Below are positions 21,796 through 29,218 of a stretch of 64,000 bases of DNA, piece after piece. The stretch's first letter is position 1. Each line of letters starts with the position of its first letter. Made by a program: the position numbers and the translations under genes. A model generated the notes under the pieces. It saw only the letters and a list, made by a program, of their open reading frames with translations, ran no database searches and was not told where the DNA came from. Source of the stretch: Thioalkalivibrio sp. ALE14 (GTDB lineage: Bacteria; Pseudomonadota; Gammaproteobacteria; Ectothiorhodospirales; Ectothiorhodospiraceae); contig NZ_AQXY01000027.1 in the NCBI RefSeq assembly GCF_000376845.1, positions 1-64,000 of the forward strand, read 5' to 3'.

Positions 21796-23508
<1,713 letters not shown>

Positions 23509-23568: not shown

Positions 23569-25248
23569 TCAATCCGAGGGTGGGGGCAACTCCCCGTTTT
23601 GCGCGGCTGACGAAAGGGGCCGAAAGGCCACCAGCGTCATGTCGTCGCGGCGCGGTTCACCGTCGCGGTAATCCTCCAGGACCCGCACGACCGCGTCGAT
23701 CTTGGCCGACAGGTCGCGCCCGCTCTTCTCGGTCAGGACCCGGCGCAGGCGTCGCCGCCCGAACAGGCGGGGTGGTTCGCCCCCCACGTGGTCGTGCGCA
23801 CCATCGGTGATCAGGAAGAACTCGGTACCCGGCTCCACCGGCACCTCGTGATCCACCGGCTGGGCGGGTTCCAGGCTGCGGTAGCCGAGGCCCCCGCGCA
23901 CGCCGCGAATCTCCTCCACCGTGCCATCACGGTCGATCATCAGCGGCAGGCCCACGCCGGCGAACGCCAGCATCCGGTCTTCCGGACGATAGACGCAGAC
24001 CGCCGCCTCCAGGCCGTCATCGGAATCCGAATCGTGGCCGTCCTGGCGCAGGCGCGACCGGACCAGCCGGTCCATCTCGCGCAGGATGGCCGAGGGCTCC
24101 AGCAGGCGATGCTCGTGGAGGATGCGGTCCAGGGCGGAGGCGACTACCAGGGTAATGAACGCCCCCGGTACACCGTGCCCGGTGCAATCCGCCACCACCA
24201 GGATGCTGTGGCCGTCGATGGCCTCGACCCAGAAATAGTCACCCCCGACCAGGTGCAGCGGTTCCCAGTAAATCTGCACCTCGTCCATATGGCCGTCCAG
24301 GGCGTGCTTGTCCGGCAGCATCGCGGTCTGGATCCGTCGCGCGTAGCGGATGCTCTCCACCACCAGGCGATTGCTGCGCTCCAGCTCGCGATTGGCCTCG
24401 TCGACCTGGGCCAGGGCCCGTTCGGTCTCGGCCTTCTCGTCTTCGAGCTGGCGCGTGCGCTCCTCGACCCGGCGTTCCAGGTCGGCGTTCAGGGCCTTGA
24501 GCTCGCCCCGGGCGCCATCGCGCGCGTCCAGGCCCGCCTGGAACGCGCGCAGGAGACGGTCCAGGGAACGCCCCAGTGCCCCCAGCTCGTCGTTCTCGTG
24601 ATGCCCCAGGCGCGGCATGGGCCACTGGGCGGGCTGGTCGGGGTCGGTATCCGCCACCGCCCGGGAGATCTTCAGCATGGGCCGCAGCATCAGCAGGTAG
24701 AACAGCACCACCACCACCAACGATACGATCACCGCCTGGGTGACGCTGGTGACGACGCCAGTCTGCAGGCGATTCACGAATGTGGCACCCAGAACACCGG
24801 GGTCCAGCTCGATCCGGAGATGCCCCACACCCTGGACGTTGCCGCGCGTATCGGGATGGCGCAGCTCGCGCGCGTGCTCGCGCAGATCGCCGAACAGCCA
24901 TCGCGACCATTCCGCGGACTGTCCCCCCATCGCCCGCTCGTCCTCGGCCAGGGTGTTGCCGAAATCGTCCAGAATTTCCACGCGGCGGATCTCGTCGAAG
25001 ACCAGCAACCCCTGGACCAGCGAATCGGCCTGGGCCGCACTCAGCTGAAAGGCGGCCTCGGCGGCCGGCGGCTCGACCAGGCGTTGCAGCCGATCGATCT
25101 GGGATTGCGTCTCCGCCCGGAAGGCATTCCAGTCCGATGCGATGACGTAGGCACTACTGAGAAGACTAAGGGCGAGCGCGGCGAGAAGCGTGGCGACGGC
25201 CAGCTTGGCAACGAGGCTCCGATTGCGCCGCTGGATCTCCGGCATCAT
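23569..25248 (-). CDS. siaA: SiaA-like membrane PP2C (SpoIIE) phosphatase with HAMP
   Basis: 559 residues: membrane span 14-36, periplasmic sensor to about 165, second span about 168-190 (TQAVIVSLVVVVLFYLLML), HAMP with NDELGALGRSLDRLL, a coiled coil, then a SpoIIE/PP2C domain with metal motifs VGGDYFWVEA, VADCTGHGVPGA and ITDGAHDHVGG. In Pseudomonas aeruginosa SiaA dephosphorylates SiaC, which then activates the diguanylate cyclase SiaD. Here it is the last gene of the module, its ATG overlapping the siaD stop. The signal sensed by its periplasmic part is unknown. Confidence 0.85.
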   Translation of the reverse strand: MMPEIQRRNRSLVAKLAVATLLAALALSLLSSAYVIASDWNAFRAETQSQIDRLQRLVEPPAAEAAFQLSAAQADSLVQGLLVFDEIRRVEILDDFGNTLAEDERAMGGQSAEWSRWLFGDLREHARELRHPDTRGNVQGVGHLRIELDPGVLGATFVNRLQTGVVTSVTQAVIVSLVVVVLFYLLMLRPMLKISRAVADTDPDQPAQWPMPRLGHHENDELGALGRSLDRLLRAFQAGLDARDGARGELKALNADLERRVEERTRQLEDEKAETERALAQVDEANRELERSNRLVVESIRYARRIQTAMLPDKHALDGHMDEVQIYWEPLHLVGGDYFWVEAIDGHSILVVADCTGHGVPGAFITLVVASALDRILHEHRLLEPSAILREMDRLVRSRLRQDGHDSDSDDGLEAAVCVYRPEDRMLAFAGVGLPLMIDRDGTVEEIRGVRGGLGYRSLEPAQPVDHEVPVEPGTEFFLITDGAHDHVGGEPPRLFGRRRLRRVLTEKSGRDLSAKIDAVVRVLEDYRDGEPRRDDMTLVAFRPLSSAAQNGELPPPSD

Positions 25249-26114
25249 CCGTGATCGCCGTGCGTTTGCACGATGACACGGTTGCGCCCTTCGTTCTTGG
25301 CGCGATACAGCAGATCATCCGCCAGCGCGACCAATTCCCCGGCATCGGGCCAGGGGTTCGTGGTCACCACCAGACCAATCGATACCGCCAGCGAGAGCGG
25401 CTCGTCCTTCCAGTGGAGCGAGGCGTTCTCCACAGCGGTCCGGATGCGCTCGGCGAGATCCACGGCCGCCTCGCGGTCAAGATCGGCTGCGACCACGAGG
25501 AATTCCTCGCCGCCCATGCGTCCGGCGTACTGCTCCGCACCGAGCTCCCCGCGCAGGATCTCGGCGAAGTTCTCCAGGGCAAAGTCCCCGGCGGCATGGC
25601 CATGGGTATCGTTGAGCGTCTTGAAGTCGTCGAGGTCAAGCATCATGACCGCAAGCGAGTGCGATTCGTCGCCGACACTGTCGGCCATCCCCTCCACGCA
25701 GTCGATCACGCGCCGGCGCGAGAACAACCCGGTCAGGGCATCCTCCAGCGCCAGGCGCTCCAGCTCGGCGGTCAGGCGTTCGCGCTCGCGCACTTCTTCC
25801 GAGAGGGCATTGTTAAGCTGGGCAAGATGTTCGGCCTGCTCGCGCAACTGGTGATTGGCCGACTGGAGGTCCGCCTGCATGCGGTCACTCATGCGCATCA
25901 TGCGGCGTTGCGCGCGATAACTTTCGGAATAGGCTTTGGCCAGAACCTTCACGCCGTCCGCCACGGCATCCAGCGCCTCGAGCATCTGCTCGGAACGCTG
26001 CATGATCGCCTTTTCCTGCTCGAACAGGGAAAAGTCCGCGAGCCCGTCCATCTCCTGCCCGTCACGGGGCCGGTTCGAGGGGTCCATCGGGTCGTCGCGA
26101 GAAGGAGCGGTCAT
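25245..26114 (-). CDS. siaD: SiaD-like diguanylate cyclase
   Basis: 289 residues. The N-terminal half is helical and coiled-coil with no membrane span (QRSEQMLEALDAVADGVKVL onward), matching SiaD, followed by a GGDEF domain from about residue 125. The active site reads RMGGEEFLVV, so the Asp-to-Glu variant GGEEF, which is catalytically competent in many cyclases. The position of the RxxD inhibitory site reads GAEQ, so canonical product inhibition seems absent. It makes c-di-GMP, presumably when bound by unphosphorylated SiaC. The ATG overlaps the siaC stop (ATGA). Confidence 0.87.
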   Translation of the reverse strand: MTAPSRDDPMDPSNRPRDGQEMDGLADFSLFEQEKAIMQRSEQMLEALDAVADGVKVLAKAYSESYRAQRRMMRMSDRMQADLQSANHQLREQAEHLAQLNNALSEEVRERERLTAELERLALEDALTGLFSRRRVIDCVEGMADSVGDESHSLAVMMLDLDDFKTLNDTHGHAAGDFALENFAEILRGELGAEQYAGRMGGEEFLVVAADLDREAAVDLAERIRTAVENASLHWKDEPLSLAVSIGLVVTTNPWPDAGELVALADDLLYRAKNEGRNRVIVQTHGDHG

Positions 26115-26503
26115 GACAGCGGACACATGCGGTAGTCGGCGTGTTCGAAATCCTCGGAAAAATCCTCGCCGAACTCCTCCATGGTTTCGTCATCCTCGTG
26201 GTAGCACCAGTTGATCCGGACCGTCAGCCCGGCCGCCGCCCCATCTTCCAGGATCTGGAACATGTTCATCAGGGCTTTCGCGGTGGACGAATTGAAATAG
26301 ATCATTTCGACCGTGAATTCCACCTCGTCGCTGGCCCGATCCTCGATCGCCTGCCGCAATCCCTGGGTCAGCGGCCCATAGAAGTTCGCCGCATCCTCCG
26401 GATAGGACTCCCCGGAAAGGCGGTACGTGCCGGCCCCGAAATCAAACTGCACCGCGGGGGTTCGGTCGGTTGCCTCGTGTTCAATGGTCTCGACAACTGC
26501 CAT
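26111..26503 (-). CDS. siaC: SiaC-like regulatory phosphoprotein (DUF1987)
   Basis: 130 residues of the DUF1987 family. The conserved core is LSGESYPEDAANFYGPL and MIYFNSSTAKALMNMF; the Ser/Thr cluster at residues 72-74 corresponds to the phosphosite of SiaC. In the known system the kinase SiaB phosphorylates this site and SiaA removes the phosphate; only the unphosphorylated form binds and activates SiaD. The C-terminus is strikingly acidic (EEFGEDFSEDFEHAD). Coupled to siaB by TGATG. Confidence 0.9.
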   Translation of the reverse strand: MAVVETIEHEATDRTPAVQFDFGAGTYRLSGESYPEDAANFYGPLTQGLRQAIEDRASDEVEFTVEMIYFNSSTAKALMNMFQILEDGAAAGLTVRINWCYHEDDETMEEFGEDFSEDFEHADYRMCPLS

Positions 26504-27093
26504 CAGATGTAGGCCTTCAGGACAAAATAGGATTGCGCATCGGAAATGTGTTGAAAGTCGAACTGGATCGGCTCACTGGCGCGGCGGGCGATCTCGATCA
26601 GGCCGATGCTGCCCCCTTTGCTGCCCTCGTCCGGCGGCTCACGCAGCTTTTCCTTGTAGAAGCGGCGCAGTTCGTCGCTGTCCATCCCGGCCAGTTCGCG
26701 CAGGCGAGCGGCCAGAGTATCGGCATCCTGACGCCCGATGACGTTGCCGCAGATCACGAAGAAACGGCCGTTCTCCGACCCGACCGTGATCATCCCGGAG
26801 CTCAACTCGACGGGCGGCTCGGCATCATGCTCGATGCGCTCGGCGGAGTAGCGAATGATGTTCTGCACCTGTTCCACGAACACCGAGAAGACCCGGTTGA
26901 CGGTCTTGGTGTCCGTGGATTCGAGCCGGATCTTCTGCCGCAACGCGTCGCCAAGGGCCTTCAGGATGCCCTCGGAGATGTAGCCGGTGAACGAAAAGAT
27001 GATGCCGCGCCGCGTCATGTTGCGCTGAAAATCCAGCACCTCTTCGGCGATCAGGGTGGACGAATCCGCCCGGGCCTCGGCTGCCTCAGTCAT
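26503..27093 (-). CDS. siaB: SiaB family protein kinase
   Basis: 196 residues, cytoplasmic. EEVLDFQRNMTRRGIIFSFT, an N-box-like VEQVQNIIRYSAERI and GSKGGSIGLIEIARRAS (a glycine-rich ATP lid) match the SiaB group of small GHKL-type kinases. It would phosphorylate SiaC and so hold the cyclase off. The start is an ATG with a GGAGAG site that overlaps the end of the binding-protein gene by 8 nt, tying the sensor and the switch into one operon. Confidence 0.87.
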   Translation of the reverse strand: MTEAAEARADSSTLIAEEVLDFQRNMTRRGIIFSFTGYISEGILKALGDALRQKIRLESTDTKTVNRVFSVFVEQVQNIIRYSAERIEHDAEPPVELSSGMITVGSENGRFFVICGNVIGRQDADTLAARLRELAGMDSDELRRFYKEKLREPPDEGSKGGSIGLIEIARRASEPIQFDFQHISDAQSYFVLKAYI

Positions 27094-27850
27094 TCCGCTC
27101 TCCATTGCTGTTGAGGACAGCGTCGACGATCGCGGCATAGCGCCCGTCGGCGCGCATGGCGTCCAGCTCCTCCTGCATGCGGTCCAGCGGCGCCCGCTCG
27201 GTTTCCGGATGGCAGGCCAGCGACATCACCGTATCGTTGAACGCGAAAAGGGATTCCAGTGCCCCGACCCCTTCCTGGCGTGCATACCAGGGAGCCAGAT
27301 GTTCGCCACTGACCCAGACATCGATGCGGTTGGCGGCGAGCTTCCGGGCATTCAGCCGGTCGTTCGGCGCGGTATCGACCGGGATTCCCTGGCGCTCGAC
27401 ATGCAGCGCCACGGCGTCGTCGCGATAACCCCCCACGCGGTAGCGCTCCAGATCCCGCAGGGAGGAAGCATTCACCTCGGCGCCCTCCAGTACGAACGCA
27501 TGCCACTGGTTCTCCACCAGGGGTCCGACCCAGGTAAACAGATCTTCGCGTTCCGGAGTCCGGGTCGTGGAAAACACGCAGGTGCCGGGTTCGGACTGGG
27601 CCTCGGCATAGGCGCGGCTCCAGGGCAGAAGGCGGATCTCCGCGTCGACCCCGGCCACCTCCAGCAGCACATCCATGACCCGGACGGAGATCCCGTCCAG
27701 GTCCCCGGCTTCGGTCTCGAAATTGAATGGCGGGTAGCTTTCGGTGGTGAGCGTCAGGGAGTTCGCGCTCAGGGGCGCCGCCAGCAGCATCCCGGCCGCC
27801 AGCAATGCTGTGCCCATACGTCGTCCGCACTGTGCCGCGAGACCTGTCAC
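27086..27850 (-). CDS. Periplasmic solute-binding protein (family 3 type) heading the sia operon
   Basis: About 254 residues with a signal peptide (GTALLAAGMLLAAPLSA, cleavage near residue 30). The mature part opens LTLTTESYPPFNF, typical of family 3 amino-acid binding proteins, and contains DGISVRVMDVLLEV and FSTTRTPEREDLFTWVGP. No transporter genes follow; instead the sia genes do. It may act as a ligand sensor for the SiaA periplasmic domain rather than in uptake. The start is uncertain: GTG (used) with GGTGAG upstream, or TTG at 27865. Confidence 0.78.
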   Translation of the reverse strand: MTGLAAQCGRRMGTALLAAGMLLAAPLSANSLTLTTESYPPFNFETEAGDLDGISVRVMDVLLEVAGVDAEIRLLPWSRAYAEAQSEPGTCVFSTTRTPEREDLFTWVGPLVENQWHAFVLEGAEVNASSLRDLERYRVGGYRDDAVALHVERQGIPVDTAPNDRLNARKLAANRIDVWVSGEHLAPWYARQEGVGALESLFAFNDTVMSLACHPETERAPLDRMQEELDAMRADGRYAAIVDAVLNSNGERND

Positions 27851-27910: not shown

Positions 27911-29218
27911 TCAACTCCGGGCGTTAGCCGAATCGGGCCACAGCACGGCCATGACGGTGCCATCCGGGTGGCACAACAGCGGGATCCGCTGGCGCTCCCA
28001 GGGCGCGATCCCGCGCTCCTGCATCAGTTTTTTGAGTGGCCGGCGCCCGGCCGGTGTCGAGACCCGTTCGCCCCCGCGGCGATAGCTAACGGTCAGGGAG
28101 GCGCCCGGGTCGATGCCCAGATCCGCCAGCATGTCGCGGGTCAGGCGCCGTCCGTCCGCCAGGACAAGTTCCGGCTGGTCAGCCGGCCAGTCCTGGTCCA
28201 GTGGCGGTGTACCGCTCTCCTCCTCCTGTCCCGCAGGCCCGGCGAGCAGCCGGTCGCGATAGCACCGCATCCAGCCTTCATTCCACTCCACCAGCGGCGC
28301 GGTCCCGGGGCGATCCGCCATCACCTGGCGCAGGAACTCCCCGAGACGCTCGTGCCCGGGCGGACGGAGCCCCTGCTCCCGCAACCAGTACCGCACCAGG
28401 CCGCGACCCGTCGCCGGATCCAGCGACCGCAGCGTCTCGCGATTCAGGGACCCCGATGCGGGATCATGTGCCTGCTGCATCAACCCGGCGAAATACGCCC
28501 GCAACTGCCCGGCCGCCTCGTGCTGCCAGCCGGCGGCGCGTGAAAGCCCGGTCACGTTTCCAAAGCGTTCGCGCAATAACGGGAGAACGGAATGCCGGAG
28601 GAAATTGCGATCAAAGCGAATATCGCGATTGCTCGGATCCTCGTACCAGTCGAGTTTCTCCCGCTCCGCGTACTCGCGCAGCGCCGCCCGCGGCAGGGCC
28701 AGAAACGGTCGCCCCAGCCAGGTGGCCCCCTCGCGCCGTAGCGGCCGCACGGCCTGCAGGCCCTCCGGGCCGCTCCCGCGCAGGGCGGCCAGCAGAAAGG
28801 TCTCGGCCTGATCATCCGCATGCTGAGCGGCGAGGATGATGTCTTCCCCCTCCAGTCCCTCGCGCAGCGCCCCATAGCGGGCCTCGCGCGCCGCGGCTTC
28901 GAGCCCGGACGACCGAGGATCAAGCGGCTCCAGAGTGGTAAGCCGAAATGGGCAATTCAGCGCACGGGCTACCGCACGGCAATGCTCGGCCTGCCGCTCG
29001 GAGTCCGGGCGCAGACGGTGGTTTACATGCAGGGCCTCGAGCCCGGGGATACCCAGTTGCACGGCCGCGTGCAGCAGAACCGTGGAATCGAGCCCGCCAC
29101 TGAAGGCAATGCGCACCCGGCGGTAGCCGGAATGGATCTGGAGGAAATCCCGCAGCGCCACGACCACGGGATCGGACGCCGTGGCGCCCGGATCAGGAAG
29201 CGGCTTCCTGGAAGGCAC
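27911..29218 (-). CDS. tilS: tRNA(Ile)-lysidine synthase
   Basis: 435 residues. The PP-loop motif [16 protein letters not shown] is at about residues 37-52, followed by [14 protein letters not shown] and [22 protein letters not shown], and [18 protein letters not shown]. It converts the CAU-anticodon cytidine of minor tRNA-Ile to lysidine. C-terminal TilS domains are present, ending with REPGRPL-like [13 protein letters not shown] and [11 protein letters not shown]. The GTG start overlaps accA by 26 nt, the usual neighbour. Confidence 0.96.

Follow-up and report, generated by a model that had tools for sequence, protein, structure and literature searches.

Two described systems frame this account (sources are given by PubMed Central, PMC, number and cited from extracts). 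The SiaABCD partner switch of Pseudomonas aeruginosa consists of a PP2C-type phosphatase, SiaA, a SiaB-family kinase, the phosphoprotein SiaC with its N-T/S-S site, and SiaD, a GGDEF protein with a SiaC-binding motif in its stalk (PMC8457831, PMC7647112). Phosphorylation of SiaC at T68 prevents binding to SiaD (PMC8457831), and P. aeruginosa SiaA has been proposed to sense membrane perturbation (PMC12834913). In Vibrio cholerae NspS-MbaA, the model for input to cyclic di-GMP (c-di-GMP) through a solute-binding protein (SBP), a periplasmic SBP relays a ligand signal to a membrane-bound c-di-GMP control protein; NspS acts directly on a GGDEF-EAL enzyme (PMC8967002). The operon considered here occupies positions 23569 to 27850 (minus strand) of a 64,000-nucleotide stretch of Thioalkalivibrio sp. 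ALE14 DNA (contig NZ_AQXY01000027.1, positions 1 to 64,000; the whole stretch is "the window") and appears to draw on both: on our best reading its input would work like NspS-MbaA and its output like SiaABCD, with the phosphatase as the receptor. We think it likely that the operon specifies a switch of the SiaABCD type whose receptor consists of two proteins, one of them an SBP.

The operon, its output and its sensor

The genes are transcribed in the order SBP-siaB-siaC-siaD-siaA and overlap at each of the four junctions (by 8, 1, 4 or 16, and 4 nucleotides, in that order), as a first-pass annotation of the sequence had stated. The open reading frames (ORFs) were read from the sequence and their start codons were picked by us; all five products exceed the cut-off of their Pfam family, and all five genes lie on the minus strand. 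The SBP (27086..27850, GTG at 27850) has 254 residues, a signal-peptide-like N-terminus and a match to SBP_bac_3, solute-binding protein family 3 (PF00497, 47.8 bits). SiaB (26503..27093, ATG at 27093, overlapping the end of the SBP gene by the 8 nucleotides already mentioned; the longest ORF starts at 27138) belongs to the SiaC kinase family (DUF6272, PF19788, 148 bits; NCBIfam SiaB family kinase NF038262, 213.6 bits against a cut-off of 85). SiaC (26111..26503; PF09345, 134 bits against a cut-off of 24.5) was aligned to structure 6k4f; the diguanylate cyclase SiaD (25245..26126, from GTG 26126 or ATG 26114; PF00990) matches 7e6g, the SiaD of a SiaC-SiaD complex; and the PP2C domain of SiaA (23569..25248; SpoIIE, PF07228) matches the solved SiaA PP2C domain 6k4e (E 1.7e-35), aligning through the conserved Asp motifs. 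The equivalog models for P. aeruginosa SiaA, SiaB, SiaC and SiaD (NF038263-NF038266) match below cut-off, at 194.6, 125.1, 83.1 and 143.1 bits against 700, 225, 150 and 290.

On the output side, the window SiaC has N-S-S where P. aeruginosa has N67-T68-S69; the presumed phospho-acceptor position is Ser in 106, Thr in 17, and the motif absent in 2, of 125 SiaC rows (the window is counted twice). SiaD has a GGEEF active site and a single SDRMQ stalk motif, at residue 80; there is no second motif, while the SiaD proteins of loci L179 and L071 have two, 32 residues apart. (Loci, genomes, families and genera are designated by L, G, f and g.) The I-site position (window 25530-25541, minus strand) reads GAEQ or a variant of it in six SiaD proteins of this type of cassette (that of the window and 5 of the 13 others), as against RxxD in those of L179, L071 and L052 (the second SiaD of G014). 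From the single SDRMQ motif and the lack of RxxD we infer that each SiaD chain would have one SiaC-binding site and that product inhibition would be weak.

SiaA has two transmembrane (TM) helices by hydropathy, at residues 12-30 and 169-187 and 139 residues apart; hydropathy and a structure model place a periplasmic, single-Cache-like sensor between them, at about residues 31-168, and a linker, HAMP-like by position (Pfam detects no HAMP), between TM2 and the PP2C domain. The segment from TM1 through TM2 (24682..25218, minus strand) is the part shared with other SBP-linked receptors; profile A5 represents a sensor of this type. Averaged by block, confidence in the model (pLDDT, predicted local distance difference test) is 85-91 for residues 41-100, 121-130 and 141-160 and 65-77 for those that separate them. 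Among solved structures the modelled sensor comes closest to Cache/PAS-like folds, namely those of a LapD ortholog (periplasmic domain, 4u64; Z 10.0 over 127 residues, 3.8 A), WalK and CitA; a further match, at Z 7.1, is LuxQ, whose partner is the SBP LuxP. Middling Z values are common, so these matches give the fold class only. Pfam yields a chance-level match for the region, whose 139-residue span is not that of a dCache-type sensor of about 290 residues; an HmsP-like label (NF008807, matching residues 48-232) was not adopted.

The first-pass annotation had described all this as a sensor added to the Pseudomonas operon. The added SBP stands; the Pseudomonas operon does not. In the PP2C tree the SiaA of the cassette groups with those of L189 and L148 (support 99/100), which places it in another SiaA lineage, and the simple formula of "Pseudomonas operon plus SBP" was rejected for that reason. 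The cassette differs from P. aeruginosa SiaABCD in its SBP, in its B-C-D-A order, in having Ser for Thr68, one stalk motif and no RxxD, and in a sensor of about 139 residues, compared with 287-291 in the f160 loci that we take here as Pseudomonas-type. (One Thioalkalivibrio genome, G014, has a second sia locus, L052: its order is A-B-C-D, it has no SBP, its SiaA sensor of 277 residues has a dCache_1 match (E 3.7e-10) that does not reach the family cut-off, and in the tree its PP2C falls among those from further loci of A-B-C-D order, L071 and L179 for example.)

Solute-binding proteins beside sia-linked phosphatases

How regularly does an SBP accompany this kind of SiaA? Searches of the genus, order, class, phylum and G263 family furnished 125 loci with SiaB or SiaC, of which 77 could be classified. 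A sensor was called short if the nearby PP2C protein had two TM helices and a sensor of under 200 residues; an SBP was scored if free-standing in the same-strand run of genes. Such an SBP lies beside 23 of 28 short-sensor phosphatases, 4 of 22 with a long sensor and none of 27 without TM helices, that is, 23/28 against 4/49. The contrast holds without the no-TM rows whose sensors could not be judged (L145, L157 and L197, cut by the end of the stretch, and L144, a 214-residue fragment): removing the three end-cut rows gives 4/46 against 23/28 (p 1e-10). Counted by family-and-class entries (several classes share some families, and each of the two f1 genera has its own entry), an SBP accompanies 6 of 8 short, 2 of 10 long and 0 of 11 no-TM entries (6/8 against 2/21, p 0.0014).

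The other 48 loci comprise 31 without a separately labelled PP2C (including the SBP-PP2C fusions of L143, L160, L198 and L205, labelled SBP), one with a far-off PP2C, and 16 set aside by TM count or size (one TM helix, more than two, or more than 750 residues), one of which, L152, has an SBP; G594, a search row below cut-off, was also left out. As a check for bias, 32 candidate ORFs were noted in the long-sensor and no-TM runs; 7 of them were scanned with Pfam and included one SBP, in L171. Two loci similar to it, L158 and L193, were called SBP by eye and counted against the association, L158 despite a gap of 300 nucleotides. These three are PotD-like SBP_bac_8 genes beside a long-sensor PP2C near siaBC in f215 (L171:4202-5305, by Pfam; L158:4098-5165 and L193:4212-5270, by eye).

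The SBPs paired with short sensors come from unrelated families (PF00497, PF12974 and PF04392): SBP_bac_3 in f1, f99 and f207, Phosphonate-bd and ABC_sub_bind in f117 and f215; that of f210 is a very weak SBP_bac_3 match called by eye. The arrangements also vary. Two f207 loci (L187, L201) have SBP-siaB-siaC-PP2C, which is the window order without siaD; f99 loci have two SBPs followed by siaA-siaB-siaC (L067, L139, L140); L073 has siaB and siaC on the opposite strand. Nine ORFs in sia loci match both the SBP and the PP2C profiles of this analysis; of the four scanned with Pfam, three have SBP_bac_3 and SpoIIE (L069:8567-11995, L143 and L157) and that of L225 does not. In L143 and L157 the fusion protein is encoded directly upstream of siaB-siaC. 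As a control, none of 29 GGDEF proteins of at least 400 residues in the survey loci has an adjacent free-standing SBP by the profiles of this analysis. That SBPs are repeatedly paired with membrane PP2C phosphatases in other bacteria, and even fused to them, suggests that these phosphatases can be SBP receptors. Gene order is another matter: the first-pass annotation had pointed to the rearranged order, but B-C-D-A also occurs without an adjacent SBP (L169, L189 and L206), is not tied to the SBP and was discarded as the novelty of the locus.

Within Thioalkalivibrio, siaC is present in 14 of the 30 genomes searched, and a close SBP in those same 14 (E 1.2e-116 or better), with weaker matches in two more (G003, 2e-29; G010, 5.5e-4). 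The five-gene order is identical in all 14. In the window the cassette is flanked by housekeeping genes recognized by Pfam and NCBIfam, tilS upstream (27911..29218, minus strand) and pyrG, for CTP synthase, downstream (21796..23499, minus strand). A pyrG search found that siaA adjoins pyrG in all 13 of the sia-positive genomes that could be read, and that 14 genomes without sia genes have tilS immediately before pyrG (G017 and G021 end at contig edges; G020 gave no pyrG). The cassette thus occupies, as a single block, a junction which is closed in the genomes that lack it. Of the other sia-positive genomes, 12 have a full PyrG, at least 93% identical to that of the window; the partial PyrG of G021 is 87% identical. 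The 14 cassette genomes were counted as one lineage by assumption.

Could the SBP be nothing more than an uptake protein, co-transcribed with the sia genes or left over from a lost transporter? By sequence it is an ordinary PF00497 protein. The usual partner, a TIGR01726 permease, has no match in the 3.02-Mb genome and is present in 11 of 14 control genomes; this agrees with the first-pass view of an SBP without a transporter as far as TIGR01726 goes, the one permease family searched, and that restriction leaves the uptake explanation some room. The missing TIGR01726 permease nevertheless speaks against uptake, as do the retention of the SBP, its genes overlapping, in 14 of 14 sia-positive genomes of the genus and the recurrence of SBP pairing and fusion in other lineages, and we regard this explanation as unlikely.

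The same SBP and sensor on other outputs

Profile A5 finds the window-type sensor in 20 of 47 genomes of the order and 13 of 369 of the class. Outside the 14 cassettes, the matches at the level of the order are in G003, of the same genus, and in 5 of 5 genomes of the sister genus g4; each of these six has the sensor as part of a PP2C protein, with an SBP gene directly downstream. The gene order there is GGDEF - SiaB-like kinase - STAS - PP2C - SBP (L137:4244-8430 in G003; L258-L262 in g4). What is shared with the window is thus an SBP, a homologous sensor on a membrane PP2C, a SiaB-like kinase and a GGDEF protein; what differs, apart from the order, is that a STAS protein replaces SiaC, for which there is no match in G003 or in any of the five g4 genomes. 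The kinase is DUF6272-like (E 0.0008 and 0.0002 in the two tested, below cut-off). Identity between window and G003 is 36% for the sensor, 33% for the SBP and 26% for the PP2C domain (22-26% to window SiaA when the g4 PP2Cs are included), and in the tree these PP2Cs sit on a long branch, apart from those of the cassette. STAS partners also control diguanylate cyclases in the HsbA/HsbD and Bgr partner switches, for which the extract of PMC8457831 mentions no SBP input.

A third output is suggested by G408 (L263:5066-7893), in which two SBP genes precede the gene for a GGDEF protein whose sensor is related to that of the window SiaA (35%): a candidate for a direct SBP-gated cyclase. One of the two SBPs shares 44% identity with that of the window across 219 residues, the other 31%. 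In all, there are 12 places with class-level sensor matches outside the genus. An SBP is directly adjacent in 6 by our own profile or Pfam (L263, L268, L269, L271, L272 and L273; in Pfam that of L269 is unconfirmed, and those of L272 and L273 score below cut-off), one ORF off in L267, recognized by eye in L264 and L274, and absent in L265, L266 and L270; 7 of the 12 sensor matches are weak (E above 1e-6) and cover part of the sensor only.

These loci bear on a second alternative, that the SBP signals to some other receptor and the operon merely coordinates expression. Partners of SBPs can be encoded elsewhere in a genome, and of the three PF00497 hits in this one the two besides the window SBP lie in larger ORFs, of 516 and 956 residues. 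Relatives of the window SBP nevertheless stay beside relatives of the window sensor when the output changes (in G003, the five g4 genomes and G408), and this alternative must be rated very improbable.

Some further loci are built differently. In L209:6810-12532, two SBPs (Phosphonate-bd-like by our own profile, ABC_sub_bind by Pfam) are followed by a short-sensor PP2C, an adenylate/guanylate cyclase (PF00211) and siaB-siaC, another cyclase seemingly replacing the GGDEF output. In sister genus g2 (L060-L066) SiaA has 425-462 residues and no TM helix; directly upstream of it in L063, L065 and L066 a 598-residue protein is encoded (EAL-CBS-GGDEF by Pfam in L063). In f99 (L067:5248-7407 and L139:585-2741) a HATPase protein with weak Hpt/CheX matches is encoded directly 3' of siaC, in place of a cyclase.

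What the binding protein may do

The scheme that we consider probable on comparative grounds is an SBP-gated partner switch, in which the SBP docks on the Cache domain of SiaA and thereby sets the phosphorylation of SiaC and the activity of SiaD. The SBP would capture a periplasmic solute and, in one of its ligand states, dock on the short Cache-like domain; docking would change the PP2C activity of SiaA by way of TM2 and the linker; SiaB would add, and SiaA remove, a phosphate on a Ser of the N-S-S motif of SiaC (by homology with P. aeruginosa T68); and unphosphorylated SiaC would bind SiaD at its one SDRMQ stalk motif and turn on c-di-GMP synthesis. The likeness to NspS-MbaA lies in an SBP without a cognate permease (of the TIGR01726 family, the only one searched) beside a membrane protein of c-di-GMP control. 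NspS belongs to another SBP family. The likeness stops at the receptor: Pfam finds only PP2C on the window SiaA and no GGDEF-EAL, and the phosphatase would work through SiaC. The first-pass interpretation is supported in part: its central suggestion, that the SBP reports to SiaA, has strict co-occurrence, repeated pairing with short sensors, fusions and the other output modules behind it.

Must the SBP bind a small ligand at all? Amino-acid-binding SBPs have an Asp in lobe 2 that plays a role there; the alignment of the window SBP to AncQR has G in its place, so that this Asp looks absent. The lobe-1 Arg, which holds the ligand carboxylate in solved relatives, is R106 and invariant in 27 of 27 aligned SBPs. 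Sensing could also do without a small ligand, if for example the SBP bound material of the envelope or formed a constitutive part of the SiaA structure. This view gains from the missing Asp and from the membrane-perturbation proposal for P. aeruginosa SiaA (PMC12834913) and loses by the invariant R106, and seems to us a very slight prospect.

Several points weigh against an SBP-gated SiaA. The 14 Thioalkalivibrio genomes are close relatives, worth about one event. Short and long sensors compared on their own, by family, give p 0.054, and SBP_bac_3 considered alone goes from 19/28 against 1/49 to 3/8 against 1/21 by family entries (p 0.052). The PF12974 and PF04392 profiles were chosen after looking at the neighbours of short sensors first, and one of the 23 SBPs, that of L148, was called by eye (this SBP and those of L264 and L274 rest on sequence reading, with a Pfam E of 0.093, of 0.21 and no match, respectively). 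Short-sensor SiaA occurs without an SBP in L189 and L206 (both f206) and in L211; L147 has its SBP at a distance of two genes, and L222 is cut short by the edge of its contig. The structure model of the SBP is poor (mean pLDDT 56). Lastly, a tree joining the cassette and G003/g4 PP2Cs is not rejected (p-AU 0.19), so that a domain swap between sensor and PP2C is unproven and the PP2C may simply have diverged fast.

Somewhat less secure, and still fairly probable, is a broader reading: the membrane PP2C phosphatases of partner switches would form a general class of receptors dependent on SBPs, so far undescribed. An SBP and a single-Cache sensor, as a portable input, would be wired to c-di-GMP in three ways (PP2C-SiaC-SiaD, PP2C-STAS-GGDEF and directly to GGDEF), with SBPs of unrelated families doing the same job elsewhere, fused to the phosphatase in some lineages. 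The SBP-driven receptors named in the extract of a 2022 paper are chemoreceptors, sensor kinases, diguanylate cyclases/phosphodiesterases and Ser/Thr kinases, with no PP2C among them (PMC9602780); searches of the open-licence PMC literature found no report that pairs an SBP with either a PP2C or SiaA.

A sensory step placed in a separate, soluble protein would open the question of what SiaA senses to direct tests by ligand screening. If the proposal is true, phosphatases join the receptor types driven by SBPs, and one receptor on three output modules offers a natural experiment on how partner switches acquire their inputs.

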